Source: Astropecten irregularis (lineage: Eukaryota > Echinodermata > Asteroidea > Paxillosida > Astropectinidae). Taken from it: 64,000 nt of DNA. A program made the position numbers and the translations under genes. How positions within the stretch are numbered: the stretch's first letter is position 1; every line of letters begins with the position of its first letter. Under the pieces are notes generated by a model that searched no databases, was not told where the DNA came from, and worked only from the letters and a program-made list of their open reading frames with translations. The stretch covers positions 4,876,270-4,940,269 of the forward strand of contig OZ020265.1 in the NCBI GenBank assembly GCA_963971285.1. The letters are read 5' to 3'. Positions 1,335-58,679 of the stretch are shown piece by piece.

Positions 1335-1357
1335 CTGAAAAGTACATGTGTAAACAC

Positions 1358-2499: not shown

Positions 2500-3060
2500 T
2501 TTTGCTGCACTGAAAAGTCAATGCTGCGCCTAGAGAGCTAGCGCCGCCGACGAGCAGCGGCTGATATGCAATATAATGTAATGTACAGTACATGTATAAA
2601 GTCAATCGGATGGTACGGTGTGTACAGGCTGTGCCCGTCGTATACGCGTACAGTACACACACATTGTGCACTGTGTGTATGTACCGGTACTGGGTTATTT
2701 TTAGACTGAGCTGAATATATAATTAGGTTGCGCCCTCCGGGATTGTAAGAGCTGGCCGTCGCAAAGGGCAAAGGTGACTTTTCGTGGCACGAATTTTGTC
2801 CGTCGTGCATCGACGAGCCTGCACCTTTAAGCAGAAAAATCTGATCGGCTAACAAACCAACAATTAAAAAGAATTGGGTAGATGACGGTTCAAGCTTCCA
2901 TTTATAGTATTGTACCAAAAACTGAGAGACTCCTGGATGTATTTATTTGAACTGTGAAGTTGAGGGTCAATGGTGTGGTGCGCCCATAGACATTGGTATG
3001 TCTTAAAAGCGCCCTCTATGTGCTCTCTGTGGGCGTTGATGGCGCATTCCGACTGTTCCA
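2500..3060. other. Upstream region of the Kolobok-like gene, no recognised gene
   Basis: This stretch would hold the promoter of the minus-strand gene starting at 2499. It is rich in TGTAC/GTACA steps and contains no domain I recognise. Open frames here on either strand show no domain signature. The GCGCCCTCT word at about 3010 recurs at 4688 and 48563, probably a fragment of repeated elements. Confidence 0.3.
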
Positions 3061-3072
3061 CAGATATGCTGT

Positions 3073-4418: not shown

Positions 4419-4668
4419 GGACAAGACAATGACTCTAGAGAACGACTCGTTTCAAAAGAGAAAATGTTTCTGTTTGCAATGACAGTTGTTTATTGGCATT
4501 AATTGTTGTTGTTTGCTGACAATTTGCTATGTTAATTGTTATGTTAATTGTAATTGGTGTTACTTGGGTTGGTTTTGCAAGATTTAGATTTAGATCTGCT
4601 TTTTCAATAGGCACTCAGAAGCCTAAGAAAACCCACCAAAGGTTGTTTCTTTTTATGAAAGGAAAGGT

Positions 4669-4830
4669 GTAACGATAGTAGGAATAGCGCCCTCTATCGA
4701 CGAGTTTCATGTAGGCACTTGCATTGTAATGGCCGCTGAATAAAGCTAACCCAGATCTATATCGACATGTAAACCTACTTTGAATCGTCTCAATCAGACC
4801 CCATCCTGCGAAGATATACAAACTATTACA
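4669..4830 (+). repeat. Probable 3' LTR of the Gypsy element
   Basis: A purine tract (GAAAGGAAAGG) directly precedes TGTAACGATAG, the usual polypurine-tract-to-LTR boundary. An AATAAA lies at 4739-4744, and the segment can be closed at a TTACA at about 4830, giving TG...CA ends. No 5' LTR is present to prove the borders, so the end is a guess. Confidence 0.4.
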
Positions 4831-4866
4831 CATGCAGAGCCCACTGTTCCAGCTATAACAAATGGA

Positions 4867-4968
4867 ATACACGGGTTAACACTTCGACAAGTGCGCATGC
4901 GTGATAGTGCCTCGTTTTGAAGTTGCGATCAAAATCTAAGATGGCTGCCAAGGTGTTAACCCGTGTAT
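4867..4968. repeat. Foldback: 18-bp inverted repeat flanking about 66 bp
   Basis: Left arm 4867-4884 (ATACACGGGTTAACACTT) is the reverse complement of right arm 4951-4968 at 17 of 18 positions. The loop holds AAGATGGCTGCC, a YY1-like motif. It may be a tiny MITE or a transcript hairpin; no target duplication was identified. Confidence 0.6.
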
Positions 4969-5342
4969 GTGTCCGGAGACTGCTAGATGAAATTCTGCAT
5001 AATGATTCGTGAATGTTTGTTTGCGTGTATGTCGTGTACTCCTTCTGCGTACTCGGCGTATTGTTACGTAAGCCAGCGTATACTAGCGCAGTAATAGAGT
5101 AGGGGAGCGTAGTCGCTACGCAACCCTCCGAAACTGTACGTAAGGCCCGGTGTGAAGGGAGCTTTAGGTAAAGCAAGGTAAGAAACGTTTTTCTGATGAA
5201 ACGGAGACGTTTTCCAATTTTCAATCTCATGCTCTATCAGTTCCTGCAATTGGCCAATGTATTATTCTATGTACTGCTGTATAAAGATTTGTTGTTTCTT
5301 CTTGTGGTACCGAATTGTGGTTCAATGTACGAATGAACTTAC

Positions 5343-5414
5343 AAGATCCGCAGTTTCCCCAGTCCTCTGAATGCTGCATTTTCTAATGTTTGAAGGGGAT
5401 TATTCCGAACAATC
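5343..5414 (-). CDS. LRR exon 4 (72 nt), last exon seen
   Basis: 72 nt, phase 2-2, acceptor TTTTCCAG, donor GTAAGT. One repeat: IVRNNPLQTLENAAFRGL then GKLRI. The strong donor shows that the gene continues; I found no further LRR or membrane exon between here and base 1. Confidence 0.88.
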
Positions 5415-8400
5415 CTGGAAAACAAGGGGAAAAATGTTAACATTATACAAAATGCACAAAGCTGCATAATACTCAGTGAGGCACCGTACATATGCCCTTT
5501 TTTTTGCTGTGACCAGTCATTAACCTCAATTCAAAATTTGCTTCCTTAAAGAAATTCCGTGTTTAGACTTTTATGATGTATTTGAGGCTTTAGTAATTTA
5601 TGTCAGTCATTTTCCTACAGTTTTTCATTCACTATTTATTAGTTTCTTGATGGAGCAAGGTGGGACTATATAATTATAATAGTTTGGTTTTCTATACAAC
5701 TGCTGACAAATACGAATATCACGTCTTCATGTTAAATAATTATCATTAAAGAGCACTTACATGATTTCTAAATTTTGTAATCCTTTGAAGTAGATACCTT
5801 TAATACTTCTGATGTTGTTGTCTGATATATCCCTGGGAAACAAAACCCACAGAACAAAATAATTCATTTTTTCAGTAACAATACACACATAACAAAGCAT
5901 TTATTTCCATTCAGAAACAATACCCACATAACAGAATCATTTAATGTTTTAGTAAAAATACCCGTATACACAAAATCACTTTTTCAGAAACAATACCCAC
6001 ACAACAAGAGCATTAATTGTTTTATTTAGTATTGAGGGAGTTATTTCCAACTCTAGCACAATAGTGTATGTCATTCCGTTATTTCGCAGTGTGTTGACGG
6101 CAACTAGTTTGATTTCACTAGGTGCAAGTGGTGATATACTTGAACATTGGGCCATGAAAATGACGTGAAAATGTGACAACTATGTTATCAGTCTGTAGGG
6201 AACATCTGGGGCTACATTTTGTGCAATTTTATTCTAATTGGCTCAGTATTGAGGGAGTAATTTCCAACTCTAGCACAAACATGAATGCCATAACGTTATT
6301 TTGCAGAGTTTTGATGGCAACTAGTTTGATTTCACTAGGTGCAAGTGGTGATATACTTGAACATTGGGCCTTAAAAATGACGTGGAAATATGACAAATAT
6401 GTTATCATTCTGTATCCACCCGACTTGACCAATAGCAAGCCGGTCGCTCACCTACTTTTGGGGGCCTACTCCCCGGTCGGGAATGCATTAATATTCACGT
6501 TTCTTTGAGAAATCTCCGGATACCCAGGTTCTTGCATACATTTTCAATGTTAAGTGAAATACCTTTGTTGGGCGGCGAAGCATGGGGTTGATAGTAGCGC
6601 GATCAAGGCTCATTCCTGCACAAGCCACGGTGAGGGAAGGGTCGCCGAGAGCGCTGTTATTTCTTCGTTCTTTGCGTTCTCTGAGTTCAGCCCTATTTAT
6701 TTTTCTTCCTTCGCCGTTTTACTCCGTTAAGCTATGCCTCATGTGCAAAAGAATATTCGGTGAGTTCTACCAAATAATGTGTTGTAATAACTGTACGTTA
6801 ATTTTCATGATTAATATCTAATAACACGAGTGTTAAGCATTTTATTGATTCTTGAAATATTTGCTGGGTTGATTGAAAATGGTGTAACGTAATATTTCGT
6901 GGTGTTTTCTTTCACGATTCTCACGAATATTGTCACCATATTGCTAAATTTATGTGTAAATCTAACGTGCCGAAATTCTTGTTTAGTACCGGCAATAGTC
7001 CTCTTTTAATCGTTGAATTTTCCTCGCCCTAAAGGTTGACTTCTTTTTAAAGAACCGCATGGCTAGAAAAGAAATTGGGTCCGTTGTGCATATAACGATC
7101 ACTCATGTTGTCACGGTTTTGAGTACATCTATATTTATTACAATTATTAATTTAATTTCAGTGTATGTATGCTGAGCACGGTGATCATTATGTGTTGTTG
7201 AGCACACTTCTATGGGACAGCTCGCCACCGTCCCCGCAACCTTATTGCAGGTACGGTGTAATTTAATTGTTGTGAATTATAGGACACCAATTTAATTGTG
7301 CTATTTTAGGGAAATTCTTGTATTTATGTATTTTCTGGCCGTCATGATTATATTGTGTTAAGTCCCACAATTGCGTTCCACTAAGCCACTGATGTCTTTA
7401 GACTGAGATAACTTTGCAACACTTCACTCGATTTTGGCCACACCGAGTCGAAGTTGTGAACCTTTTAGATAACTGTTTGCCATACTTGAATTATTATAGA
7501 TTGATTGTATTGACTTGGTCGAAGAAGATAATAGTCGTCGACATTTGTGGGCCGGTAACTATGGCCGTATTCTTATAATTATTGCATTAAATTTGTTGTG
7601 CACAGATCTTTACAATCAATGAATATTTTTCTACGCAGACTTCCATATATCTTCTGGTAGCCTTGTTTACTCCTTTTTATTGAACCCAATTAAATGCACA
7701 ATGTTTTGTCTGACCTGAAAGAAAACTTTCCACCTGTTTTCCTTTACCTTGAGTCCTCTTGGTTATAATTCTATAGGGAACATCTGGGGCTACATTTTGT
7801 TCAAGTTTCGTTTTGATCGGCTTAGTATTGAGGGAGTAATTTCCAACTCTAGGGCAAAAGTGTATGCCATATCGTTAGTTTGCAGTGTTTTGACTGCAAC
7901 TATTTTGATTTCACTAGGTGCAAGTGGTGCTATACTTGAACTTTCGGTCATGAAAATGACGTGGAAATGTGACATCTATCTTTCCATTCTGTAGGGAACA
8001 TTTGGGGCTACATTTTGTACAAGTTTCATTTTGATCGGCTCATTATTGAGGGAGTAATTTCCAACTCCAGCGCAAAAGTGTATGCCATCGTTAATTTGCA
8101 GTGTGTTGACGGCAACTAGTTTTATTTCACTGGGTGCAAGTGGTGCTACAGTTGAACGTTTGGCCATGAAAATGACTTGGAAATGTGACAACTATGTAAT
8201 ACAAATACCCATGCAAAGCATTCTTTGTTTCAGTAACAATATTAATACCCACATAACAAAGCATTTATTTTGGGAAACAATTACCACAAATCACAACAAT
8301 AATTGTTTCAGAAATAATAACCATCTAACAAAAGCAATAATTGTTTCAGGAACAATACGCACACAACAAAGCATTTCAGTAACGATACCAACAGAACAAA

Positions 8401-11400
8401 ACATTCGTTGTTTGTAGGATTCAACAACTGAATTGGCTGAACAAAAAGTTGCATTTTGTTGTCAGCATAATACTACAACTGTTCATTGAAATTAGAATTA
8501 CAAAGAACATTGGTCAGGAGGGATTCGAACCTGCGACCTCTGTAATACTGTACTGGTTTCTTTCTAAACTCGAGTAATATAATATGAGCCAAGCTCATAT
8601 CAATGTTAAGTGGTCAAACTGTAAACGAATTTTCATTTTGACTACAGGAGAGAATAAGGCCTCTCTATTGTCTGTCGAAGGGAACTTACAAGAAAGTCAG
8701 ATTGTCCAGACCGTTAAATATCTTTGGTCTGATCCTGTCCATGCTGTTGTTGTTGAACCATCTGTTAGTAGAAAATAAATACGTCAAGTGAAAGACAAAA
8801 CAAAGACCTAAACTTCGAGAAGAACATTTGCAACATTACTGTCGCACCCTAATTTAGTTTGGGGATGATTCTAATGCTAGTAGAATGCAAATGATCGGAT
8901 ATCATGTTGGAATATTTCCATGGAGCTCCTCAAGCATACACATTCGCTTAGCATGGAAATTCCTCCTTGCTTAAGATAGCATCACCAAGAGTATGCTTAT
9001 GTGATGCCTATTGCTTAGGTCTTAGAAAAGCATTCTGTTTGCTGAGCATGACAATCTTAAGACATAGAAGTGGGGAATCGGATTTCATTGAGGAAGTTAT
9101 GTAGTTCCTGAGTAGGTTTTGCGATTAGGAAGATGTATAAACTTTCCCCCTGACACGAATTACTACTCAATGACGCTGAATTTAGTTTGTTCATAGTGCT
9201 GTGTTGAAGACAACAATTTGGACTCTCCCTGATTGCTACTAGAGATTAGCTTTGATTGTAAAGTCGTGAAGATCAGCAAGTGCCGCCCTTCATAAACTGT
9301 ACACCCATTAACTTTTAGAATTGAGATAACAATCTATGGATGAATAGTTATCAAGAAAATGTCTGCGAAATTTAACTATGACACCTTTTGTTTCTGTCAG
9401 AAAACTGTTTACTCACAAAGCTTGTAAAGATAAGAACTCTTTGAAAAGTCCCTCGTCAAGCGCACTCGCGTTTCCACCAGAGAGCGTGCTGCAAAAATAC
9501 GAACAAAATCGAAGTAATCAATCACCAAAAAACAAAACAAAATTGTTTGCCGGGTCAGAGTGGTTACGACTTCGCCAGGCTTTCAAACTTAATATCAAGG
9601 CTAGTTTGACCTCTGACCTAATCAGTGTATGCTTACAGGTGCCGTGTCCCCTTCGCCATGTTGGCAATGGTAGTCTTGGTCCAGCCGTCTTCACAGACTA
9701 CACGAACGTCCCCTTGGGCAACCGTGCATTTACAGCCACTTAAGCATCGCTGCTCTGAAAAATCAATCCAAATAATAGAAAGAACATGATAGCCTGCACT
9801 CTTGCAAAACCTGAATTTCATGGCATATTTTCACCAAATGAAGGCTCGCTGTACTTAAAGGTACTGTCATACTTTGGTTTTTGTCCAATAAATGCAGATT
9901 TATGGGCACAAAAATCAAGACAGATACAATAACAGTCATCTGTGAAAATTTCAGTCCCATACGGTGCCCACTTTTTGAGAAAACAGTGAAAACAGCCTCA
10001 GTCTTTTCCCCTTTTTGTTTTGATCTTTTAAAAGATCTTAAAGATATTCGGTCGTTGATTTACTCTTTCCTTGATAAATAACAAATTTCAGGCGGAAAAA
10101 AATGTCAACGGTAGGTTTCTACTAGCACCATCTTCATACCCTGTAAGTTATACGTAAATATGTGAAAATTTCTGTTTTGGGTTCTTACCAAAGTATGATA
10201 CTACCTTTAAGCTTCAAATGTGATAATAATATGTCACGTACTTGTGTGAAAGATTTTAATGTTTAAGATACATTTCGTTTTTTTTTGTGCACAAAGATGG
10301 CGTCTGTTGCGTCTCTTGCGTTGAAACCTAGAATGACGTCATGTGCATAGAGTTTGCACGGCCATGTTCGAATGCTGGCTTCTTGGGCTGCCGCTACGGT
10401 TACGCCTATTAATTGTTTGCGTGCTTCAATGCATTTGCATCGTCCGAACACCTAGACCTAGCCTTAGCCTAAATTTCCCATGCGTACCGCATTGCAAGTC
10501 GTTCTCATCGTCCCCATTTGGGCAATCAATATTCCCGTCGCAGACCATTGGCAAACGGATACACTTCAATGAGCTGTCACAGTGGTAGAAATCTGGACAA
10601 GTTACATTCTCTGTATGTTAAATCAAGAGTATAATATAATGGTTAATTAAAAGTTATATTAGTCATCGCTTATAGGCTACCTAGAGTCACCCAATAACGT
10701 TATCATCACTTTCATCATCACCATAGCCTTGAGTTTCCACAAAATACTTCACGTAAATGATTGATGCAGTCCTTTTATTCAGTCAGGTTCTTTTATTGCC
10801 TGCATACAGAGAAAATACTTACAGATAATGAATGGCAAGTCTTAGTTTGGTATCAAACCACCATTTGGTTTTCGTTTTAATGGCTTTGCAAAATGGGAGA
10901 TTTTCATGCATACTCATGTGGGGAACAAACAGCACAAATATAATGAAAAAATATAAACAATGAAGAGGCAAACTTGACCCACATAAATGGTTTTGTAAAA
11001 ATATTACACCGCCTGTTGAGTGAAAGGAACATATATTCACCACACCGTAAAACCTATTGAGGAGGAAAAGGTCTGTCAGAAAACCTCTAAAACAACCCCA
11101 AACGTTTTGCGCTCAAATCAATTGGATTACTGCTCTCAAATACCCAGATGACATCACAGTTTTGTGAACGAATATGGAAATCCTAATTAGCATACAAACC
11201 AAAAACCTGTTAACCCCGAAACAGTGCTAGGAGGAGGGTAAAATCACCGGCCCATATAACAATTTTTTTTTGACACGTGTTAAAGCCATTATATTCCTAT
11301 TGCAGAGACCCTTTAAGGCTAGGCGATTTTTGCTACTGCCTTTTTTCAAATTATAAATGCAGTGAATTGGCTTGATATACATGGCGAAGGTTGAGCCTTT

Positions 11401-14400
11401 TCACGGCTTCGCCAGGTGGCCCAATCCCTTCAATTGTGGGCCCTATTACGCCTTTCACTTCACATGTTCGGCATATCTCCGAAAGTGCCAATTGGGCACA
11501 CTTTCCCTCGTGTATATGGCGAACCATTCTTCAGAGTGGAAGTTTGACCCTCCTGTCTGTTGAAGAGAATTAAAGTTTGCACTAAAATAACAAATCAGCA
11601 CTCACTGCAATCAAGTTCATCTGAGCCATCCGTCTGACAATCTTGAAAACCATCACATCGCGCATCACTAGACACACAGGAGCCATCGCCACAGTCAAAG
11701 AGGTCGTCGTATGCACACGGAGTAGGCTCTAATATATCGAGGACAAGGATCGAAGGGACAAAGCTTACCAATAATCGGCAAAGGCAATTTTGATAAATGA
11801 CCGGTCTGTAAAATTGAGCCATAAGTAACAAATTTGGCAAACTGAGTTATATCTGTCGAATGAGAAACTATCCCCATGAGGTTTAATATGGTTCATGTTT
11901 GAATGTTTGATATGAATACTACTTCTTAAACACAGAATGATCCTACAATTCTACAAACTCTTCCCAGGTTTAATAAAATATACCCTGTAAACATGCTGAG
12001 TGACATCAGAGCGAGTCACAAAATGTCTAACATGCTTGAATCGATACAAGTAATAACCTGCTACAAACTGCTCATCAACCAACATAATGATCTAAACTGT
12101 ATCAGATGCTTAAATGAGTTTGGAGGACCTGATGTTTCGATCCTAGCAGGATCTTTCTCACATCAGGCGCCCTCCTTAATTCAAGCATGTTTGATTTTAC
12201 TGAATTGTTCATGGTCAAATTGTTAAAGTTTTTTTCAGCAGGTGTTTTCAGTATTATAATTGTTCCTAATGCCCTTCCTATACGTGGTTGGTCCAGTCGA
12301 GGTTTTTGAACGTGAAACACATTTTGAAGCTAGTGTGGCCGAAACACTGTGGCTCTTCTGAAAAGTTTAAAAGTAGTCTATTCCTCATTTGTTTATCTCT
12401 TAGGAGCTCGATCATCATCCCATATGTAAACTTCATTCTTCTTAACTACTTGTCTACGGTGGCCCCATGATGACTGAATGTGTTCGTGTTGGACATGTGG
12501 GGGTTTGACGTTGGACAAATGAATTCTGAACCGTGGACCTAAAGGTCCTAGACCGTGGACGTTTTAATATGCACTGCTGACATTCTCACCAAATATCGCA
12601 GAGAGTTGAATGTGGAAGCCTTCCTTGGCCACAGTGGAATCCGTCCTGAAGTGTATCGTCACCTCGCTTGAATTAAAGGTGATGGTTCTAACTTTTGTGA
12701 TGCCGTGCATCCTGAACACCATCCCAGCTCCTCCTTGAAGAGTGTCACCAGTAAACCAGAGCTCATCTCTGGAGGTCTCGGTGGCAAATGTCCTCACCGA
12801 GATCATGATCCCGTATGGGTAGGCCACCAGCCATTCGCAGTCTAGATCGGAGGGATATTTATCTGGATATCCGGCAGAGTACAGGTCTTCATGTAAAAAC
12901 CGATAGAGGTTGTACAAGTGATCGCCACAGTCATCTACAGGCGAGAATGCAATGAAGCAAGCCATTACGCAAGCCCGTCAATCAAACTGTACGCATTCAT
13001 TGGAGTCGTTGTCGTCCATTACCTTGGTCAAACTAGGTCAAGTGCGGTATGTAAAACATGTGGCGTTGCTAAGGTTGGCGGGACTTATCTAATCCGGAAC
13101 TATACATGTCCACACTAATAAGCAAAAACAAAACAAAACAAAAACAAAACAAGTGAAAACACAAGCAAGCAAACAAGAAGCAAGGAGCGACTTCCAGACA
13201 GACATCCAGACCAACACCACCACAGACAGACAAACAAGGGAGGGATGAAAGGGAGTGCCATGATTCAGGTTTCTGGTGCCCACCTTCTGGCAATCCCCAG
13301 GGGAGGTTTCAGAGGTCAGGCTGGGTGGCAAAAGAGCCACGCCCATCGTTGAGTTGGTGGTGACTGCCCATCGCTGGCCACCGAGGAAAGGGAGGGAGGT
13401 TTTAGCTCACAAAGAGGGGGATCGTTGCAGTGGGAAAGTTTGGGTGGTCCTGGCACGGAGTAGTGGTTAACCCATGTCTCGCCGAGGCGAGCAGGTACTT
13501 TAGCCAGGACCAAATAAGATAGAGACTAACCCAGAAGTGACAAAGAAAGTACATATAGTTATTGTTTTCAGTGGGAAAAACGAGGAACAGAACATTGGTT
13601 AAAATAGCAAGTTGAGTGAGTCGTATGTGATTTCGAGTTTAAAAACGAAAGATTTGGGCATAATTTTTGGTGAACATGGAAACATCGTTGCGAGAGGAGT
13701 AATATCGGAATTCTGTGAGAATTTTACATTTGATTCGGGTGGTCCAAACTAGAAGGGGGTTGTCAAAAGTCTGTTTCGAGTACAGGAAGTAAAACATGAA
13801 TTTTAAAGTCATATTGAGGTAATTAAAGAGGTTTACGGCTTTTTCGGACGACCCCTGGCGTGCGGAAGGAGAGACCAGTACACGTCGAAGTTGAAGCGGA
13901 TGTCGGGGAGGATCTTGTGAAGGAGCTGCTTCAGAGCTGGTTCAATGGCAGGACACTCGATACAGAGGTGGATGGTTGTTCCTCTGTGGCCGCACCATCC
14001 GTATGTTGAGGAGATGGCTGAGTCAATGTGGTGGAGAACTGTTAGGAAAGGTACAGTGTTGTATCATGTGCAAGAGCCGGAATTGTGCATTGACTTCCTT
14101 CCTGGTAGTCGGAATACTTGTTTCCACGGTATGGCTTGTTTCGTTGGAATAACACCATTTGTGTGCAAGCGGGTAATATTGCACTCACCCAAGTGGTTCA
14201 GCTGCTTGTTGATGGGGCGGTAGATCACCTTTGCTGGCGAGTGGGTGATGATGGAGTCTCTGGTGGTTTGAATCTTAGGCTGTGGACTTGGAATTGCAGG
14301 AAGGTTGCACAGACGAGAAGTTAAGAGCCGGTATATCCGGTTGGATTGGAGAGTTTGGGAAGGGCAGGGATTAGAGCAGCTTCCAGTTGAAACAGTTCGG

Positions 14401-23400: not shown

Positions 23401-26400
23401 AGCAGGATCTTTATAAAAGGCTAAATGACAAGGGGACCAGAACATGCAAGTGAAAGAAACACAAATTAAGCTTATCTTGGACTCGACTTCTCCATTTTTA
23501 TCTGATCTCTAATCCTCTAATTATCATCTTTGTTAATCCCTATTCCCCATTCTTCCCCACACCTTTGGAGTCTGGCATTTTTGATCTTGCCTACCTCACC
23601 CCTGTTTGTCTGACCAATCTCACATCCCTCCTATTGTTCTCATCCTTTAATTCATTCCTTTGTGTTTCTTTCACTTGCATGTTCTTGTCCCCTTGTCATT
23701 TAGCCTTTGAGAAAGATTTAGCTGGCAGCGAAACGCGTCAGGCCCCTCCCAACTCTAAACATTTGATTTATTTCAGGTAATTTAGGCTGATGAGCAGTTT
23801 GCAGGAGTTTATCACTTGTAATGATGTATACTGTTTAAATTATTGAAATGTGAACAAAGACAATTTTCAAACCATCCAAAGACTCAGTTTTCTGGAGTCA
23901 TTTGATTTTAAGATATTAATTACGTAGGTGACATTTTCTCTAAATTGAAGCTTGCAGTAGCATTGAACCAGTTTTACCCGGTCGTTGTGAGAAATGCATT
24001 GCTGAAATCGTCTCCATTGCTACAATACAGGTAGTCGTATTTTCTCAATTGAAAGGTCACGAAGCTGAGTACCACTCTGTATTCCACCTCTGCCACTACA
24101 GACCATAAGCACTGCCGATTATTCGGATAGTCAGCGATGGGCATCCAGGCGATGCTATCACCGATGATACATTTTGCGTAACGTTGATAAACGTATCACT
24201 GCAATGTTCTGGAATATTAAAAATAGATGAAATATTCCACAATCCCGAGCAACTCCGTTTTGGATGAACAGTCCAAACAAACAAACAAACAAAAAACACC
24301 CCAACAAACAAACAAACAAACAAACAAACAAACAACTCCATCACCATAACAAACAGACCAACAAACATCCCGATCTGTCTTCAGAAAAACCGACATATAG
24401 ATACTCGATCGACATATTCTACATCCACCCAACAGCTCGACCACCCGACCGACAGACAGACAAACAAACAAACAAATTATGTGGTTTCAGGTCCCAAGGA
24501 GATTCATAGAGAGACCCACATCAGAAGAGAATACAATGGCATCAGGATATGTCTTTCGCTCTTACCTTGTGAACAAACTTGGCGTCCATTCCGTGAGCTG
24601 TCGTTTCTTATACAAACGAGATCCTCCATATTACAAGCAATTTCGTTCTCACTGCAAGAAACTAAACGGTAAATGTACACAAACCTATTGATATGAATAC
24701 ATTTGTGAATCCTTGCTAGTTGGACAATGGGACACCAGTGTTATGAATATGTGTAGGGTTATTTACTAGATTGGCAATAAGAATTTTTTTTTTTTAAGTT
24801 ATTTGGGAGATGAACCAAGAACCTAAGGATTAGCGCACCCATGCACTTATATGCACTTCAATGCAGAAACAACAGTTGTAATGAGACCTGCAGTTTTGTC
24901 AGACCTGTAGATAGATTTGCGGCATAAAGGAAGGTCCCCAAATTGCTATCAAAAATGGCCGAAATATGCGTCAATGCACAAAGAGAACTAGAGCTTTTTC
25001 CCAACATCGATTCAGGCTTTGGCTCTGATCTTGCTTCATTTCATACATTTATTTAAAAGAAACCGGTGTGAAAATAGAGGGTTCTGGCTACGGCTTGGCA
25101 GTAGCCAAGGTGTTCTTTTTTCAAAAACCTTGCGATAAACGTACCATTACTCTCACCTTAGTGGAGAAACAATTGTTTGAAATTCCCTTCAATTTCATTA
25201 GAACAATATATAGATTTGCGGCATAAAGGATGGTCCCCAAATTGTTATCAACATTGCTGAAATGCGTCAGTGCGCAAAGAACTAGTGCCTTGACCCAACA
25301 TAGGCTCTTGCTTTGCCAACAATGATTAACGCTTAATGTACGGCATTTGGTTTCCCAAACTCTGACACCGGCGTATTTCGTTCTCACTGCAAGAAACTAA
25401 TCGGTAAATGTACACAAATCAGTGTTATGAAAACATTTTGGAATCCATGCTAGTTGGGCAATGGGACACCAATGTTATGAATATCTGTTGGGTCATTTAC
25501 TAGTTTGGCAATGGGGCATTTTCACTTATTCGTGAGGTGATCTAAGAACCTTAGGATTAGCGTACCCGTGCTGTAATATAATATAACTACTGTACCCCAA
25601 TGCAGAAACCACAGTTGTAATTATTTTCAGTTTCAGTATCAGTTTTGTCAGAGCTGTAGATATATTTCCGGCAAGGAGGGTCCCCAAATTGCTATCATCA
25701 TGACCGAAATATTATGCGCCAATGCACAAAGAGAACTAGTGTTTTTTTCCAAAATCGATTCAGGCTTTGGCTCTGATCTGGCTTCATTTCATGCATTAAT
25801 TTAAAGAAACGGGAGTGAAAAGACAGGGTTTTGGCTACGACTTGGCAGAAGATTCAAAGGAAAAAACTGCAGGCTATATTTTCATCATATTGGTGACAAA
25901 GAATGATTCATAGCCGACGCAAAGGTTTGAACGAGACCCCTTGTCGGTGCTTCTGTTGTCATCCTTTTCTGCACTCACCTGTGTCTGATAGTCTCTGTTC
26001 AACAAGAAGCTCAAAGCCACGATTTGTACCCCTGTTGTCAGACGTGAACTTCAGGAACATTTTGTTGCTTTTGGAGGCAGTCCAGACGGGGAACATATCT
26101 CTTGAGAAAGTATCACCATAAAAAGAAACATATATTTCCTTAAACATATCGATTACTTGTTAAGGTTTATGCAGTGCATAGGTACAGAGGTAATTTAAGA
26201 TGATTATTGTTATTAACCGTAAACAGATATAATGGAAATTCCGCATTGAATCACAGAGTAGCATTGAACAAAGTTTACCCGGCCAATGTGAGAAACGCAT
26301 TGCTGAAATCGTCTCCATTGCCACAATACAGGTAGTCACAGTAGACATATTGGCACATCGTCCTAAAGTCCGCGAATGTGAGAACCACTCTGTATCCCAC

Positions 26401-29400
26401 TTCTGCCACTATTAACCATAAGCACTGCACATTACTTGGATAGTTATTGATAGGCCATCCAGGCGATGCTATCGCCGATGATCTGTTCTTGGTTACATCG
26501 AAAAACGCATCACTGCAAGGTCCTGGAATATCAATAAAAAAGATGAGAATGACCAAGATCTCAAGTTTACTGATTGTTTCGAATGCCCCTCAGAACCAAA
26601 TCATAGATTGTAATTTATTGGCTTTTTCTCAAATATGTTTTGTACAATCCACCTTAACTTTTGAGTCAGTAAGAAATATTGTTCTAAGGACTGAAGCGAT
26701 TGTAACACATGTCTGAAGAATTGTGTGAACCCGCGACTTGTGCCTGCCCCTCCTTACCCAGTTACTATCGCAAGTTATATCGCACCCAATTTACCTTAAA
26801 AATGTGGTCAAACTTAATGAGGAATGGGATTTGTGATGGCTGCAAGCGTTTTGTGCGAAAGAGACGCAATGAAAAACCCAATTTGGCACTTTGTTAAGAC
26901 AGGTTTACTCATTACAACCTTGTATAAAAATATTGTGAGTTTCAGTGAGACAAGCCAACATGATTGTTGCGTCTTGGCCGAATAGCTGTGGGAAAACTTA
27001 CCGCAGTACGATTCGTCCATAAGGTCCGCGCAGTCTGCGATGTCGTCACAGATCCTATCGGTAGAAACGCACTGTCCTGACATGCAGGCCAACTCTGACG
27101 AGGAACAGTTACCTGAAACCATGATTGATAATCGTAGATACGTCATCAAGAATGAAAAGGGTACATGCTGGAAGGAACGTGACAGAATGTTTGGTCATTT
27201 GATACTAAACATTTCATGGCTGGACAGTCAGCCTGTGAGTGAAATTACACCAGTGCATTGATCTATGATTGACTCGTGCAAAATACATTAAGCATTAAAC
27301 TTGCCAAGCACCGAAAACCTAGGATGAACGTATAATACTAGAGTATAAACACAATGGTATAACACTCTTTGAGTATGACACATTTCGTCAAACTATTAGA
27401 CATTGTCATATTTTCATTCCCTGTGATCTTAAAAATTTATTTTAAGTATGAAGCAATATTTAAAACCGGGGACCAATAACTGAATTGAAAATTGAATGAC
27501 CATTTCACTGATGAAACATGTACAAAACCAATTAAGCTGTTGCCAAAAAGTTAATTTCACAACAACATTCGAACATGAAAAAGGTCCAAGACTTGTGAAC
27601 AATTTGAGGCTGTTCTGTAGATAAGTGTTGCCACTGCGTAACTTAAGTAATACATACCACATCCAAACTCGTATCCACTGTGCCAAGCATGCGCACATAC
27701 GCAAGGTGGATCCTCAATATAATGCAGGTCAGTTGGACAGACAAACTCATCCTCGCTACAGCCTGAAACATGAACCAGAAATAGACAAATGACCATAGGC
27801 ATCATAGTACGTTATGCAGAATTTAAAGTACTTCACTAACGATGCGAAAACTCAAGGCAAGTTTGGCCTAAATACCAAACCAACACCATCAACAAACAAC
27901 AAGCAAATAAACAGAAAAGTTCACACAAACCAAATAATTAAACAGCATAGGAAAAACAGCGCCACATTATGTTAAACCTGGCCAGGGGCTTTTCTCAAAG
28001 CTCGGCTCCGGCTCCGACTCCGCCTCCATTTTAACATTTCGGGTATCAAGAAACCAGAGCTTCAGCTTCAATGAAAACTCATAACCTGTATTTCCATCAT
28101 AATGGAATAAAGAGACGAAGCCGGATCCTTAGCCGGAGCCCATCTTTGGGAAAGGCCCTTTAAATAATATATAGATTGAGCAAGCCATGCATTATAAATG
28201 GAATGAAGTGATAGCGTAATGGCTCAACGTAGCGTCAGCTGGCCTCAACTGAGCATTCCGCTCCTTGGGGAGACTGCACGAGAGACTAAGTAAACGACTT
28301 GTGCATAAGCCTATAAGCCCCTAAGGCACTATGTGTACTTTCTGTTTGAATATTGTAATTTGTATGCTAATGGCAGTTATTAAGATCGCTGTATTTGCCT
28401 TTGCTAATGTCTTACCGGCGACGTTGTATGAGATGAATATGAGTTTGAGCTTCACCAAGTATCCGTTCGGGTAGTCATGCTTTAGTGTTATCCACGTCCC
28501 GGATCCCTCCATCGACAGCACGTCTGTGGGTTGAGTGGCTCCCAGCGTGGCAGAGAGCACCTTACCTGGAACACTCGCACCCGGATCCAATCCGTTCCCA
28601 AAGCTCATTACCATTGCCTCACCGATGAAATCCACCACATTTACCCTGATCCGGGTTCCGGGTGGCTCCCTCACTTTCCAGATGCACTCCAGAGGTCCTA
28701 TTTCGTCTGTGTAGTTGGTGATAATGACGTCATCTCGGGCAGGGTCATTTGAGGACGAGGGAAACTCTCCAGGGTAGATGGCAAAGTGACCAGATGGTGG
28801 CATGTCCTTGGATTTGAACAAGCCACTTATAGTCAGGGCTTCACGTGGTCTCAGTGATATCTCTGACACGCCGCACCGATCTGCGAAATAAAGCACATGT
28901 ACATGTATTGAGAATATTGAATTGATACAAACAGCAACGGAAATCCCAGCAGCCTCCACTTTTCCTGATCAATGTCAATGTATGTCAATGCTGTGTGGGC
29001 GTAGAGACACTCTGACTCCATCCCCATTATCCTCGTTTCGAATCTCTCCGACGTCATCGTGTATTTGGAGCGAGTTGCTCCTGCCGTCTTGAACGAATCT
29101 TCCAAGACTCAGTCTCTCAGGCAAGGACGTGACATAATCATTCCATGTTCTCTTCAATGACTCTTGGCTCTTACTCACCACAAGGGCCCGCTTCATCCTC
29201 GTAGTTGGAGCAGTGCGCCTTACCGTCGCAAAGCGCCTGCTGTGGAATGCACTTGGAGTCATGGGGACATCGTATCTGCTCTGTCCCGCACTGAACTAAA
29301 AGAAAAACGGGAAAATAGTAACATGTCTTCGTAAATATATGATATTCATCTTCATGGGACGGCAGGAACTCACAATTCAAGAGTTCTGGGGATCGATTAA

Positions 29401-31645
29401 CTATAAAAACAAACATAATTCCATAATGCGTGACCTCTTGACCTGCACTATATTGCATGTATCACACAAACTCTAAAACCGTAAGGGTCAGTGACGTGGT
29501 ACTGATGGGCATGCAAAACCAAAATATCTTTAGTACGAAACCATTAAAGCACTGGGCATTTGGTTTGTCAGGCTATTACCTGACAATCTCCTGGAATTCT
29601 TGCAGAACGTTGTGTGCAGATCTTGAGACGAGAGACCATACTTGGTCAGAGGTAAACTCATCAGTTTCCTCTACAGTTTGCGCCGTGTTTTAGTTTTCCA
29701 GTTGATCAGAAATTGAACGTAATTTTGGTTTAAACAAATAAGAAATGTTACCTTCTGCTGTTTCGTTCTCTGCCCACAAGAGGATTTCTAGTTTCATCTC
29801 AAATTTGCTGCTCGAGTTGCAATCCGGACTGGAAATGAAGGTGATCCAGATGTTCCTCTCATTAAAGATGTACGTAGTTCCATTCTCATCTTTGGTTTCC
29901 AAGTAGGTTATGGTGAGCGCCAAGGATGACATGTTGTTATTGACCTGCCCAGTACCGAGGTAAAGTCGCTGGTATTCCCTCATCTTGATGTTCAACAGAT
30001 CTACGTAGGTTGTCATGCCCGGAGCGGTGGTTACCAGCCAGATGCATTTTTGGAAACGGTTATTTGGAGTGGAGGAGCTAATAAGATGGGCCCCGGTCAG
30101 GTTGATGAGGGAAGGTCCACAAATCTGAGCTGAAAAATATAAACCAAGACAGTATAGGCTATTACAACAATGGTACTTTCCTTGTTGGAAAATGAATTGT
30201 GTTGCAGAATATCTTGAAAGTTATTGTACTATTCGTGGTCTGGTATTAGAAAAACGAGGTTGACGATGTTCGTAGTTAAAAGTACAATACATGATTGGTA
30301 AAGGTCACAGGACTGCAGTCATACATTGTCTGATCAAACATGTACATGAAATAATAAACCTGTGAAAATTTGAGCTCAATCGGACATCTGAGTCACGAGA
30401 AAATAGCGAAAACCCGATTCGATTTTTCTTATAAAACATGAAGAATAGTTTACTTTATGTAAACTAAATCTTGATTTGCTTGAAAAACCAAGCATCTGAT
30501 GAACCAAAATTTCTATGGTGACTGTTTGCACTGTTTACGAACTGTTAATACAAGAAAGTTAATACCTACAGTTAGAGTCCTTACCCGTGATATCTGGTAA
30601 TGGCTTAACTTTACACGAGGCAGACAGATTAAAAACGGTTGAGTGAAACCTCACTATCAGAGGTTTAGATGCTGAACGAATTTCGTCAGGATAGTCATTG
30701 TTGTAAGAGACATAATCGTCTTCAGTGAACAGATCCAGGTACGTTGTACTTCGATGCTCTGCAGAGATGTCACAATCCAGCTCGATCTCAATTCCCTCAG
30801 AAGCCGTGATGTTCCAGCAGTAGTCACGGAAATCGCCGCGTCGAATCGCCAACGAATCGCTGAGGTTCATGGCGTCCCAGTCGCTCGCCGAGAATGCAGA
30901 CGTCTGGCTGAAGTCCGCAAGAAAAACATCGATGCACGCCGGGCCATATTCTAATGAATACAAAAATGACCATTTCTACTTCCACACGTGGATCAGTGCC
31001 TTGGTCATGAGGGGCAGGCAAAATTCGCATCCAGCATGTTTTATGGTACAAAGGTATTGAAATATAAAACGCTATCATTTCTCCATCGACACCACGAAAT
31101 GACACTAGTTGTACCTATTGTGTGAATTTTTTTTCAGATTTTCGTTTTATTAACGATTTGAACTATCTGTGTGTTTATCTGTTTGAATTTGATTTGAAAT
31201 AAGCCGGTTTTAAAAAGTCGTCAGCTTCAAACGGCAATATTTCAAAATATGGACACATGATCTTGCACGTTTTGGGTGTCAGTTCACGGTGTTGGTGAAG
31301 ATTTGCTGGGACAAAACTTCTGTTCAGTACAATGTGATGAGCGTCTGAGCTGAATCAAAAATTTGGTTTTGCTTAACTCAACAAGTTTCCACTGGACAGA
31401 AATCGAGGCTTGCCAGTCAATGATAAAACTATACCAAACGCAAACATATGTATAACTAAGCATCTCCTCGAGGTTTATGGACACTACACTCTTTCATTTT
31501 CACTAATGATTTATTTACTCCCCCTACACTGTTCGTTTTCGCAGAATATAAATTGTACTCACGTGAAATGGCCACACTGCAACAGAGGCCGAGCATTAAT
31601 ATGATGCTGAGTCTACATGAACCCATTTTGGATTCAACGGAAATT
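5343..31645 (-). CDS. CUB-LDLa-LRR receptor gene, relaxin-receptor/GRL101-like (partial, 3' end off window)
   Basis: Thirty-one exons with matching phases (listed individually below) give: signal peptide, CUB1, CUB2, LDLa1, CUB3, LDLa2 (divergent), LDLa3, six CUB-plus-C4 cassettes, CUB10, LDLa4, LDLa5, LRRNT, LRR1-4. The protein is secreted or a membrane-receptor ectodomain. In the type C LGR family, LDLa modules at the N-terminus are followed by LRRNT, LRRs and a rhodopsin-like 7TM, and LRRs sit on 72-nt exons, exactly as here. The multiple CUB domains are not part of the vertebrate relaxin receptors. No 7TM or stop codon lies in the window, so a single-pass or secreted LRR protein remains possible. 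Introns carry a LINE, MITEs, SINE debris, a tandem-repeat complex and probably the Gypsy and Kolobok-like elements. CUB exon A of cassette 2 is frameshifted. Confidence 0.72.
5761..5832 (-). CDS. LRR exon 3 (72 nt)
   Basis: 72 nt, phase 2-2, acceptor TTTCCCAG, donor GTAAGT. One repeat: DISDNNIRSIKGIYFKGL then QNLEI. A 2.9-kb intron with the repeat complex separates it from LRR exon 2. Confidence 0.88.
5860..8415. repeat. Symmetric tandem-repeat complex in an LRR intron
   Basis: Order: roughly 42-bp repeats of ACAATACCCACATAACA type (5,860-6,010), two 217-bp units (about 6,028-6,415), 1.35 kb of unrelated DNA, two 217-bp units (7,772-8,195), then more 42-bp-type repeats (8,205-8,410). The 217-bp unit contains TATTGAGGGAGTAATTTCC at 6,030, 6,248, 7,828 and 8,045. 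Both halves have the same orientation. Confidence 0.8.
6416..7771. other. 1.35-kb segment splitting the 217-bp array
   Basis: It interrupts a unit between CATTCTGTA and CTATAGGGAAC. It holds a GC-richer block (6,420-6,740) with a short plus-strand frame from 6,582 and a strong donor-like CG|GTGAGT at about 6,758, then AT-rich DNA with no recognised gene. It could be an unclassified transposon; I found no clear terminal repeats. Confidence 0.4.
8505..8580 (-). repeat. tRNA-derived SINE fragment (B-box side)
   Basis: On the minus strand GGTCGCAGGTTCGAATCC is a perfect RNA polymerase III B box with tRNA T-arm context. The A-box half is degraded and there is no intact tRNA fold. Confidence 0.6.
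8690..8761 (-). CDS. LRR exon 2 (72 nt)
   Basis: 72 nt, phase 2-2, acceptor ACTAACAG, donor GTAAGT. One repeat: WFNNNSMDRIRPKIFNGL then DNLTF. Confidence 0.85.
9417..9488 (-). CDS. LRR exon 1 (72 nt)
   Basis: Exactly 72 nt, phase 2-2, acceptor TTTTTGCAG, donor GTGAGT. One repeat: LTLSGGNASALDEGLFKEF then LSLQ, fitting LxLxxN.xxxLxxxxFxxxxxL. Confidence 0.78.
9637..9754 (-). CDS. Exon: LRR N-terminal cap (LRRNT)
   Basis: 118 nt, phase 1-2, acceptor TTTTCAG, donor GTAAGC. RCLSGCKCTVAQGDVRVVC shows the LRRNT cysteine pattern C-x3-C-x-C-x8-C, then a Thr/Ile-rich strand leading into the first LRR. The phase changes here from 1 to 2, matching the LRR exons. Confidence 0.82.
9859..10207 (+). mobile_element. 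MITE family A, complete, TTAA target duplication
   Basis: 349 bp flanked by TTAA (9855-9858 and 10208-10211). The ends are inverted: AGGTACTGTCATACTTTGG and the complement of CAAAGTATGATACTACCT. A central palindrome GATCTTTTAAAAGATC marks the middle. Non-coding; it depends on a transposase that makes TTAA duplications (piggyBac or Kolobok type). Confidence 0.85.
10488..10610 (-). CDS. Exon: LDLa domain 5
   Basis: 123 nt, phase 1-1, acceptor ACATACAG, donor GTACGC. VTCPDFYHC, LKCIRLPMVC, DGNIDC, NGDDENDLQC: complete LDLa directly before the LRR cap, as in relaxin receptors. Confidence 0.9.
11606..11728 (-). CDS. Exon: LDLa domain 4
   Basis: 123 nt, phase 1-1, acceptor ATATTAG, donor GTGAGT. 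CAYDDLFDC, GSCVSSDARC, DGFQDC, DGSDELDC: a textbook LDLa with full calcium cage. Confidence 0.92.
12590..12934 (-). CDS. Exon: CUB domain 10
   Basis: 345 nt, phase 1-1, acceptor CCTGTAG, donor GTGAGA. A canonical CUB on a single exon: DCGDHLYNLYRF, SAGYPDKYPSDLDCEWLV, DELWFTGD, VTIHFRTDSTVAKEGFHIQL. Unlike the cassette CUBs it has no internal intron, so it belongs to a different CUB lineage. Confidence 0.9.
13105..13172. repeat. CAAAA-type simple repeat
   Basis: Runs of ACAAAACAAAACAAAAAC followed by ACAAGCAAGCAAACAAG; simple-sequence DNA in an intron. Confidence 0.8.
13520..15340 (-). mobile_element. Decayed LINE (non-LTR retrotransposon) fragment
   Basis: On the minus strand RT motifs appear in order: QNKSPGLD (followed by a stop), LPISFRRAVITLLPQKGDL, NWRPVSLLNVDYKIVAKAL, HTDQSYTFPDRSIQDNI, then KAFDNAD (motif A Asp kept). 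A deletion removes the rest of the palm. The C-terminal region resumes with WKQVFRLP and a zinc-like CGHRGTTIHLCIEC, and RGRPKKP near 13,850. Many stops and frame changes; dead copy. The pattern fits the L1/Tx1-type group. Confidence 0.82.
14420..14457. repeat. 17-bp direct repeat
   Basis: GCGGGTGACGCATGCGC occurs twice in succession within the decayed LINE. Confidence 0.7.
15459..15554 (-). CDS. Cassette 6, C4 exon
   Basis: 96 nt, phase 1-1, donor GTAAGT. VSCGENEIACRMEDLVC, SSRNGRQVCST. The LINE insertion follows about 120 bases downstream in the next intron. Confidence 0.75.
16235..16356 (-). CDS. Cassette 6, CUB exon B
   Basis: 122 nt, phase 2-1, donor GTGAGT. DLFPVWIASKGNKMFLKF, NRGFELLVEQRPSDT. 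Confidence 0.82.
16525..16756 (-). CDS. Cassette 6, CUB exon A
   Basis: 232 nt, phase 1-2, donor GTAAAT. EPCSDTFVNVTQNASS, SPGWPIADYPNRRKCLW, LLDYLLCGNEDDFNNAF. The usual YLYC tyrosine is Leu here. Confidence 0.85.
17123..17212 (-). CDS. Cassette 5, C4 exon
   Basis: 90 nt, phase 1-1. VSCGENEIACEMEGLVC, FGRHVCSQ; two residues shorter than the other copies in the last loop. Confidence 0.75.
17722..17843 (-). CDS. Cassette 5, CUB exon B
   Basis: 122 nt, phase 2-1, donor GTGAGA. DMFPAWIASKGNKMFLKF, HGFGLLVEQRPSDT. Confidence 0.82.
17983..18214 (-). CDS. Cassette 5, CUB exon A
   Basis: 232 nt, phase 1-2, donor GTAAAG. EPCSDTYVNVTQNASS, SPGWPFADYSNDQQCLW, YRVVLTFVKFEMKPYDFLYC. Confidence 0.85.
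18561..18656 (-). CDS. Cassette 4, C4 exon
   Basis: 96 nt, phase 1-1. VACGVNEVACKIEDLVC, SSRNHHQICPP. The most diverged C4 copy, but all four cysteines and both splice sites are kept. Confidence 0.75.
19060..19181 (-). CDS. Cassette 4, CUB exon B
   Basis: 122 nt, phase 2-1, donor GTTAGT (weaker than the GTGAGT of its sisters). DLFPVWIASKSNKMFLKF, then NVTYRGFELLVEQRLSDT, with a unique NVT sequon. Confidence 0.8.
19485..19719 (-). CDS. Cassette 4, CUB exon A
   Basis: 235 nt, phase 1-2, donor GTAATA. GSCGKPLINVTQNASS, SPGWPIADYPIDRQCLW, YRVVLTFVDFEME, YLYCGNEDDFSNAF. Close copy of cassette 3 exon A, with few substitutions. Confidence 0.85.
20157..20252 (-). CDS. Cassette 3, C4 exon
   Basis: 96 nt, phase 1-1. 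VSCGENEIACRMEDLVC and SPRNGRQVCSQ; donor GTAAGA, acceptor CCGTTTAG. Confidence 0.75.
20836..20957 (-). CDS. Cassette 3, CUB exon B
   Basis: 122 nt, phase 2-1, donor GTAAGT. DMFPVWIASKSNKIFLKF, NRGFELLVEQSLPDT. The exon's last base is C instead of the G found in its sisters. Confidence 0.82.
21723..21957 (-). CDS. Cassette 3, CUB exon A
   Basis: 235 nt, phase 1-2, donor GTAATA. GSCGKPLINVTQNASS, SPGWPIADYPNNRQCLW, EVGYRVVLAFVVFE, DYDYLYCGNGDDFSNAF. Two N-glycosylation sequons (NVT, NAS). Nearly identical to cassette 4 exon A. Confidence 0.85.
22418..22513 (-). CDS. Cassette 2, C4 exon
   Basis: 96 nt, phase 1-1, acceptor CCGTTTAG, donor GTAAGA. VYCGENEIACNMEDLVC then ISRNGRQVCSQ; all four cysteines kept. 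Confidence 0.75.
23093..23208 (-). CDS. Cassette 2, CUB exon B
   Basis: 116 nt, phase 2-1, donor GTGAGT. Encodes DMFPVWIASKSKKMFLKF and NRGFELLVEQRLSET; two residues shorter than its sisters in the loop between the strands. Confidence 0.82.
23978..24208 (-). pseudogene. Cassette 2, CUB exon A with 1-nt deletion
   Basis: 231 nt where phase 1-2 demands 3n+1 (sister exons 232 or 235). One G is missing in the SPGWPIADY codons at about 24,140 (plus strand GATGGGCATCC versus GATGGGCCATCC elsewhere). Splice sites (ATTCCAG, GTAAAA) are intact. If the base is truly absent, the exon is frameshifted; skipping A and B together would restore frame. It also has CSNG where others have CGNG. Confidence 0.85.
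24275..24345. repeat. CAAA microsatellite in cassette 2
   Basis: About ten CAAA/ACAA units with a short CACCCCAAC interruption; expanded only in this cassette. Confidence 0.85.
24566..24661 (-). CDS. Cassette 1, four-cysteine (C4) exon
   Basis: 96 nt, phase 1-1, acceptor CCGTTTAG, donor GTAAGA. Begins VSCSENEIACNMEDLVC and ends GRQVCSQ. Cys spacing is C-x6-C-x6-C-x13-C. The start resembles an LDLa domain that has lost its calcium cage; I know no named family for it. Confidence 0.75.
25378..25404 (-). pseudogene. Truncated relic of a C4 exon
   Basis: The acceptor (CCGATTAG) and the first 25 or so bases of a C4 exon, up to the codons for SENE, are kept. The sequence then switches at about 25,379 to a copy of the intron that follows CUB exon B in cassette 4 (compare 18,775-19,015 with 25,121-25,378). 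It is the scar of a lost cassette. Confidence 0.7.
25979..26100 (-). CDS. Cassette 1, CUB exon B
   Basis: 122 nt, phase 2-1, donor GTGAGT. Second half of the CUB: DMFPVWTASKSNKMFLKF, then NRGFELLVEQRLSDT, matching the final CUB strands (FLxF.SD....GFxLxV). Confidence 0.82.
26279..26522 (-). CDS. Cassette 1, CUB exon A
   Basis: 244 nt, phase 1-2, acceptor ATTCCAG, donor GTAAAC. First half of a CUB: CSDAFFDVTKNRSSAIASPGW, QCLWLIVAEVGYRVVLTFADF, then CDYLYCGNGDDFSNAFL. It is the most diverged exon A of the six and has extra cysteines (TMCQYVYC). Confidence 0.82.
27002..27112 (-). CDS. Exon: LDLa domain 3
   Basis: 111 nt, phase 1-1, acceptor GTTTCAG, donor GTAAGT. Canonical six cysteines: CSSSELAC, GQCVSTDRIC, DDIADC, and LMDESYC, with the calcium-binding acidic residues (D in IADC, DE near the end) present. 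Confidence 0.88.
27658..27762 (-). CDS. Exon: divergent LDLa-like domain 2
   Basis: 105 nt, phase 1-1, acceptor TGTTTCAG, donor GTATGT. Contains CSEDEFVC like an LDLa start, then PPCVCAHAW and FGC: five cysteines rather than six, and no DGxxD..SDE cage. It resembles the first half of the C4 exons of the cassette array (CGENEIAC), so it may be their ancestor. Confidence 0.55.
27985..28160. mobile_element. GGCTCC-type MITE, eroded copy
   Basis: Left GGGGCTTTTCTCAAAGCTCG plus CTCCGGCTCC; right AGCCGGAGCCC then TTTGGGAAAGGCCC. The arms are inverted and resemble the complete copy at 50,776. Confidence 0.7.
28416..28880 (-). CDS. Exon: CUB domain 3
   Basis: 465 nt, phase 1-1, acceptor TTTCGCAG, donor GTAAGA. 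Begins DRCGVSEISLRP; then FAIYPGEFPSSSND, LECIWKVREPPGTRIRV and VVDFIGEAMVMSFGNG give the CUB core, and GTWITLKHDYPNGYLVKLKL the final strands. It is longer than a typical 110-residue CUB. Confidence 0.75.
29179..29295 (-). CDS. Exon: LDLa domain 1
   Basis: 117 nt, phase 1-1, donor GTGAGT. Six cysteines in LDLa order: CGTEQIRC, SKCIPQQALC, DGKAHC and a final C after YEDEAGP. The calcium-cage Asp of the usual DGxxDC is His here, although the terminal acidic pair is kept. Confidence 0.85.
29752..30129 (-). CDS. Exon: CUB domain 2
   Basis: 378 nt, phase 1-1, acceptor TTTTTCAG, donor GTAACA. Begins QICGPSLINLTGAHLISS, then KCIWLVTT and ITYLETKDENG, then NIWITFISSPDCNSSSKFEMKL near the end. The C...C-x-W spacing is that of CUB. 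Several N-glycosylation sequons are visible (NLT, NMS, NGT, NSS, NET). Confidence 0.7.
30280..30440 (+). mobile_element. MITE family B fragment
   Basis: TTAA at 30276-30279 then AAGTACAATACATGATTGG and an interior like the right half of the 41,572 copy (ACATGTACATGAAATAATAAA, TGAGTCACGAGAAAATAGCG). Truncated within an intron of the receptor gene. Confidence 0.6.
30585..30950 (-). CDS. Exon: divergent CUB domain 1
   Basis: 366 nt, phase 1-1, acceptor TTCATTAG, donor GTAAGG. About 122 residues with the CUB-like spacing CIDVF...YCWNIT...ELDCD...SASCKV and a final hydrophobic strand (LIVRFHS). It lacks the usual SPGYP motif, so CUB is called from position, size and Cys/Trp pattern. Confidence 0.6.
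31563..31645 (-). CDS. Signal-peptide exon with start codon
   Basis: ATG at 31624-31626 begins MGSCRLSIILMLGLCC, a classic signal peptide (Arg at position 5, then a hydrophobic core, Ser at the probable cleavage region). A strong pyrimidine tract and TTTTCAG place the acceptor at 31646, so 31627-31645 is 5' UTR and an untranslated exon should lie upstream (higher coordinates). The donor is GTGAGT at 31562; the exon ends in phase 1, as all later ectodomain modules require. Confidence 0.75.

Positions 31646-58648: not shown

Positions 58649-58679
<31 letters not shown>

Follow-up and report, generated by a model that had tools for sequence, protein, structure and literature searches.

The window, a 64,000-nucleotide stretch of Astropecten irregularis DNA (C30:4876270-4940269 of the 475.7-Mb assembly in our genome search), contains most of a large gene on the minus strand that runs from C30:4907895 down to C30:4868745. 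We spliced the window strand by acceptor, donor and phase, which gave AG...GT at every internal junction and continuous phases through the chain: single modules are 1-1, two-exon CUBs 1-2 then 2-1, the LRRNT 1-2 and the LRRs 2-2. With both exons of the CUB labelled CUB5 omitted, the window part of the chain encodes 1629 aa and is stop-free. We also retrieved the 60 kb to the left of window base 1 and searched it with seven starfish relatives (tblastn). Two further exons, matching in order, strand and phase, were found there: one encoding LRR/hinge sequence, and a 1156-nt exon, 6.4 to 7.5 kb left of the window, encoding hinge, 7TM and stop. The full model has 33 exons and 6210 nt including the stop, and encodes 2069 aa with no internal stops. 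The features are listed below in coding order, in window coordinates and all on the minus strand (−).

31563..31645 (−), first coding exon, with ATG (31626) and signal peptide; acceptor before 31645, phase-1 donor after 31563
30585..30950 (−), CUB1, divergent CUB
29752..30129 (−), CUB2
29179..29295 (−), LDLa1
28416..28880 (−), CUB3
27658..27762 (−), LDLa2x, degenerate LDLa-like exon, placed by comparison with relatives
27002..27112 (−), LDLa3
26279..26522 (−), CUB4 first exon, unit copy 1
25979..26100 (−), CUB4 second exon
24566..24661 (−), m1, 4-Cys module
23978..24208 (−), CUB5 first exon, unit copy 2, one base out of frame
23093..23208 (−), CUB5 second exon
22418..22513 (−), m2, 4-Cys module
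21723..21957 (−), CUB6 first exon, unit copy 3
20836..20957 (−), CUB6 second exon
20157..20252 (−), m3, 4-Cys module
19485..19719 (−), CUB7 first exon, unit copy 4
19060..19181 (−), CUB7 second exon
18561..18656 (−), m4, 4-Cys module
17983..18214 (−), CUB8 first exon, unit copy 5
17722..17843 (−), CUB8 second exon
17123..17212 (−), m5, 4-Cys module
16525..16756 (−), CUB9 first exon, unit copy 6
16235..16356 (−), CUB9 second exon
15459..15554 (−), m6, 4-Cys module
12590..12934 (−), CUB10, single exon, grouping with the relatives' last CUB
11606..11728 (−), LDLa4
10488..10610 (−), LDLa5
9637..9754 (−), LRRNT, phase 1 in, 2 out
9417..9488 (−), LRR exon 1, 72 nt
8690..8761 (−), LRR exon 2, 72 nt, found by tblastn with relatives
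5761..5832 (−), LRR exon 3, 72 nt
5343..5414 (−), LRR exon 4, 72 nt
1..5342 (−), intron leaving the window
−6064..−6156 (C30:4870205-4870113) (−), LRR/hinge exon
−6369..−7524 (C30:4869900-4868745) (−), hinge + 7TM + stop exon

The 2.5-kb intron between m6 and CUB10 also holds a reverse-transcriptase fragment (RVT_1, window 14954-15292, minus strand). Elsewhere in the window there are fragments of an LTR-type element (45444-47593, plus strand), with a CCHC knuckle and a weak protease-like match at 46083-46670 and an integrase zinc-binding domain at 47165-47593; Pfam gave no match for 45444-46067. A 19-bp unit forms a tandem array of about 57 copies at 49422-50493, in a region of marked GC skew, and a repeat of about 139-143 bp occurs in many short tandem runs at 52630-61105. 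The unit of the latter contains TGACGTCATCATGACGTCATC, which to us resembles doubled CRE sites.

Domain structure and extent of the gene

The encoded protein begins with a signal peptide and the series CUB1-CUB2-LDLa-CUB3-LDLa'-LDLa, continues with six [CUB + 4-Cys module] units, and ends with CUB10, two LDLa, LRRNT, LRRs, hinge and 7TM. CUB, LDLa, LRR and 7tm_1 thus lie in that order within one reading frame. An earlier note on this DNA had proposed one unbroken chain from signal peptide through CUB and LDLa modules to LRRNT and LRRs, and splicing, phases and the open frame bear this out. It had also inferred a GPCR, a reading that depended on 7TM exons lying to the left of the window; the search of that region located the 7TM at C30:4869900-4868745. 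For the C-terminal 633 aa of the model, Pfam gives 100 bits for 7tm_1 (cut-off 30.5 bits), 62 bits for LRR_8 and 41.7 bits for LDLa.

Some details of the earlier description needed revision. The 72-nt LRR exons were correctly recognized, but their list was incomplete, the one at 8761-8690 having been overlooked. The LDLa modules before the LRRNT stand, but we rejected m1-m6, the six modules that follow the unit CUBs, as full LDLa modules because each has 4 Cys. For CUB1, a non-CUB identity was rejected by profile comparison, an AF2 model and structural matches.

We also considered whether two genes are present, one for a secreted CUB-LDLa protein and another for a separate LRR receptor, with the 2.5-kb intron and its reverse-transcriptase fragment separating m6 from CUB10. 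We rejected this extremely improbable reading because the phases, the relatives and the 7TM exon agree: phases are unbroken at all junctions, and nine annotated relatives (see below) unite these domain kinds in single proteins. CUB10, moreover, sits on the LRR side of that intron. We consider it nearly certain, on these sequence criteria, that the gene and its domain structure are as modeled. The gene is predicted to be complete and to encode a very large class A cell-surface receptor.

Relatives in echinoderms and in the same genome

When residues 1150-1629 of the window model served as the query, 70 proteins were listed. The top nine are echinoderm proteins (starfish and brittle star), and Pfam finds CUB, LDLa, LRR_8 and 7tm_1 in every one of them. 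The architecture is therefore not new in kind. The earlier note's claim that it was new fails on these annotated proteins and also on CUB-bearing type C LGRs that an excerpt of PMC9545775 describes for Nematostella and Trichoplax. In that excerpt Nvec-LGR4 and Tadh-LGR5, like our gene, add CUB to LDLa-LRR-7TM but, unlike it, carry fibronectin type II domains too. The Nematostella protein P0034 shows MAM, fn2 and one CUB stretch.

The long asteroid relatives read, by eye, CUB-CUB-LDLa-CUB-LDLa-LDLa-CUB-LDLa-LDLa at the front and CUB-[4-Cys]-CUB-LDLa-LDLa-LRRNT-LRR-7TM at the rear. Two of them, Acanthaster planci LOC110983163 (P0001) and Patiria miniata LOC119725387 (P0002), annotated as "uncharacterized" or "GRL101", share with the window gene the kinds and order of domains, the 4-Cys module between the last two CUBs, the motif DSF at the E/DRY place, and a hinge-7TM region that is 71-72% identical. 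They differ from it in having one [CUB + 4-Cys] unit rather than six. They also carry a CUB and two LDLa that are missing from the window gene, located between the equivalents of its LDLa2x and LDLa3. The Amphiura filiformis proteins P0008 and P0009 (five and three CUBs, respectively, by the CUB profile) likewise place CUB and LDLa before LRR and 7TM but retain Arg3.50 (DRF, DRL), unlike the window gene. The same profile finds eight CUBs in the window model and a maximum of six in 182 proteins (P0075, P0078), although it misses the window's CUB1 and may miss its counterpart in relatives too. In a 7TM tree of 72 rows, the window gene is nested in an asteroid clade (SH-aLRT 99). Given these sequence relationships, there is hardly any doubt that it belongs to an echinoderm CUB-LDLa-LRR receptor family. 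Our searches of open-licence PMC papers turned up no account of starfish LGRs with several CUBs, nor of the Arg that these receptors lack.

In its domain order the gene resembles type C LGRs: LDLa modules precede the LRRNT, and the LRRs are followed by a class A 7TM. The same arrangement of LDLa, LRRs and class A 7TM is found in RXFP1/RXFP2 and Lymnaea GRL101 (types C1/C2). A figure legend of PMC9545775 gives RXFP1 (human LGR7) a single LDL domain and mentions no CUB for it, and GRL101 has twelve LDLa and six LRRs according to an excerpt of PMC8286064. Compared with solved structures, the window 7TM alone scores 130.7 bits with RXFP1, 120 with TSHR and 100 with FSHR; for the relative P0001, RXFP1 is best at 178.7 bits, with the FSH receptor at 109. 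The likeness to type C LGRs would thus be a resemblance by domain order and bit scores only. The earlier label "relaxin-receptor-like" fits the LDLa-LRRNT-LRR layout, with CUBs in front, but gives little ground for a relaxin-receptor function: RXFP1 is the nearest solved structure, yet only slightly ahead of the TSH receptor by 7TM alone.

Searching the genome with the LRR-7TM part of P0003 (555 query residues) gave 84 matches, of which 42, including the window's own, cover at least 325 of the 555 residues; 29 of these long matches are on C30, and six have stops inside. Among the best 20 beside the window's own, Arg3.50 is absent in every case (17 DSF, 2 DCF, 1 NSF), and the 7TM exons are 61-96% identical to the window's. 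Thirteen of them, at 90-96%, are distributed over four contigs (nine on C30, two on C10, one on C23 and one on C29), and the aligned exon of one of them (L042) contains a stop. With the window gene itself, this group of 90-96% identical 7TM exons numbers at least 14, and ten members share one contig. For the 13 close paralogues, 7TM dN/dS against the window gene is 0.13-0.29, which indicates that the 7TM is under constraint (purifying selection). The next group, with 54-57% matches, has DRY or DRF in all six hand-picked members. At E 1e-4, no paralogue turned up in 160 kb on the left or in the 100 kb past the right end of the window; a tandem cluster at the locus was accordingly rejected, the copies being dispersed. 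This burst of Arg3.50-less copies is new, as judged from the matches. Biomphalaria GRL101-like receptors, as described in an excerpt of PMC12297450, similarly combine an expanded LGR set with an extra recognition domain, but that domain is a C-type lectin rather than a CUB, and twelve of the genes lie in one 440-kb cluster instead of being dispersed.

CUB domains also occur in other settings in this genome. In one open frame of 3330 aa (C8:28287813-28295696, minus strand) lie 15 of 150 scored CUB matches, which makes it a multi-CUB protein in one giant exon. Dense CUB exon matches, some with an internal stop, extend across 27 kb at C14:22317349-22343939 (plus strand), perhaps a multi-CUB gene.

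The amplified CUB unit

We built a CUB tree with 74 domains taken from 17 proteins; its 116 columns are a small number for that many sequences. All five intact unit CUBs (4, 6, 7, 8 and 9) form one clade in it (SH-aLRT 99), close to the one CUB that corresponds to them in the relatives. On the available sequences, the sixfold amplification of a single [CUB + 4-Cys] unit is a new feature compared with those relatives. The unit region as query gave 23 proteins, four of which (P0001, P0002, P0004 and P0006) are family receptors, covering 52-59% of it; the rest mostly have cubilin or cubilin-like names or CUB domains, and no other GPCR with the same unit amplification is among the 23. In the Asterias rubens receptor P0077 (LOC117299647), the first two CUBs form a close pair beside the last-CUB type, which from its place in the CUB tree appears to be a doubling separate from that in the window gene.

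The earlier note had counted ten CUBs. Ten copies are indeed there, but the first exon of CUB5 is frameshifted by one base, leaving nine in frame. This copy can be skipped without a change of phase, and as the units are bounded by phase-1 introns, copies can be inserted or dropped with the frame kept.

Pairwise dN/dS is 0.37-1.16 among the five intact unit CUBs (the value of 1.16 comes from the pair 4 and 9, one of ten pairs) and 0.14-0.48 among the six 4-Cys modules. Seven of the ten unit pairs include unit 8 or 9; in these, divergence over aligned bases is 28-49% in the introns and 10-20% in the CUB exons, so those exons look constrained. In the youngest pairs, exons are no more conserved than introns. 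Between units 6 and 7, the introns differ by 4% and 29% and the CUB exons by 8% and 14% (for the 4% intron against the 8% first CUB exon, Fisher p is 0.03 on rounded counts); between units 5 and 6, the introns differ by 10-15% and the CUB exons by 13-16%. Patchy gene conversion or diversification could lie behind this pattern. Within the unit CUBs, pN/pS is 1.09 inside two loops, which were chosen after viewing the alignment, and 0.51 outside them; the ratio near 1 would fit relaxed constraint equally well. Three acidic residues, which we take to be the calcium site of CUBs, are all kept in five aligned relatives and, among the five intact window copies, only in CUB6.

The frameshifted copy, the intronic reverse-transcriptase fragment and the 13 close paralogues, which could mislead assembly, might together suggest that the gene is a pseudogene or that the array was wrongly assembled from its paralogues. 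We regard this as very unlikely: splice sites are intact at 33 exons around one open frame of 2069 codons, sister-unit exons differ by 8-26%, too much for an assembly duplicate, and the flanks searched above have no paralogue at E 1e-4.

Arg3.50 and the possible role of the receptor

The window gene has DSF at the E/DRY motif, and so no Arg3.50, and retains the canonical NPxxY (NPYLY) and CWxP (CWMP) motifs. Of 201 proteins plus the window model, 127 align over more than 200 residues in our 7TM alignment; Arg is present at 3.50 in 108 of these rows and absent in 19, with six variants: DCF in seven, DSF in six including the window gene, NCF and DCL in two each, and SCC and NCL in one each. All 19 fall on one side of a single branch (SH-aLRT 99) in the 72-row tree, which comprised these 19 and 53 hand-picked rows of the 108, with motif columns removed, and which came from a quick search, with no bootstrap and some long branches. 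The loss maps as one change, a count as low as this arising in 0 of 500 shuffles. By their source names, the 18 database members of this clade come from Acanthaster, Patiria and Asterias, and other proteins of these genera retain the Arg.

Atypical receptors such as C5aR2 are without this Arg. The window gene might accordingly encode a decoy, scavenger or co-receptor whose G-protein coupling disappeared along with Arg3.50 and which takes up or displays what its CUB array catches. The single loss shared by all 19 clade members, the absence of the Arg from the best 20 further genomic copies, and a 7TM that is still constrained would all suit such a role. We nonetheless judge it improbable, as NPxxY and CWxP are retained and RXFP1 has Lys at the same position in a solved structure that is a Gs complex, so that a missing Arg is no proof of lost coupling. 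A virus-encoded receptor that is highly active without a DRY motif (a reference cited in PMC6267866, in an excerpt whose remarks on DRY concern two other starfish receptors and not its GRL101-like one) likewise argues, with the RXFP1 Lys, that a missing Arg need not mean atypical signalling; the same two observations weigh against the Arg3.50-independent route in the explanation favored below.

The LDLa-LDLa-LRRNT-LRR arrangement beside the 7TM, as in type C LGRs, and RXFP1 as the best solved match for both P0001 and the window 7TM would be expected of a peptide-hormone receptor of the relaxin/insulin type. Its LRRs would bind the ligand and an LDLa near them would activate the receptor, with the CUB array as a mere spacer or in functionless drift. 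This too seems unlikely: dozens of dispersed genomic copies are unlike a hormone receptor, and in the older units conservation is higher in CUB exons than in introns. Furthermore, LGR3, LGR4 and GRL101 each have only a single orthologue in the ambulacrarians covered by PMC8286064 (excerpt), which suggests that the CUB-LGR family may lie outside those groups.

The explanation that we favor, with a probability of about one half, is a sensory or immune receptor that captures and signals. The long CUB/LDLa stalk would serve as a capture arm, binding outside macromolecules by avidity (candidate targets are prey, microbes, conspecifics or matrix), and the captured ligand would be handed to the LRR-hinge-7TM unit, with the 7TM relaying the signal inward by a route independent of the usual Arg3.50. 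The family would expand in the manner of chemosensory or immune receptors. The 7TM dN/dS of 0.13-0.29, against 0.37-1.16 for the CUB units, suggests a conserved output and a faster changing input side. Precedents are found in snails, where a schistosome-resistance region includes a cluster of GRL101-like LGRs that carry C-type lectin domains (excerpt of PMC12297450), and in starfish, where a GRL101-like receptor is elevated in sensory tentacles (excerpt of PMC6267866). Taken together, the constrained 7TM, the faster arm, the many copies and these precedents may point to macromolecule sensing or an immune receptor.

A bolder and rather doubtful version of the capture-and-signal idea would have a starfish-private, fast-multiplying set of receptors that abandoned the Arg3.50 switch and converted a hormone-receptor frame into one for capture. 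Phase-1 [CUB + 4-Cys] cassettes would be gained or lost from one gene copy to the next, their ligand loops would diversify, and the 7TM would carry the captured ligand or take it up, with no ordinary G-protein coupling.

LGRs are familiar chiefly as hormone receptors, with an ectodomain that is rather fixed, whereas the ectodomain here is modular and appears to grow by exon cassettes. The clade multiplies within one genome, and the residue most closely linked to G-protein activation is gone from its 7TM, which nevertheless remains under purifying selection. This makes it testable whether the hormone-receptor frame may have been turned into a sensor of large ligands, and whether an LGR can work without Arg3.50.
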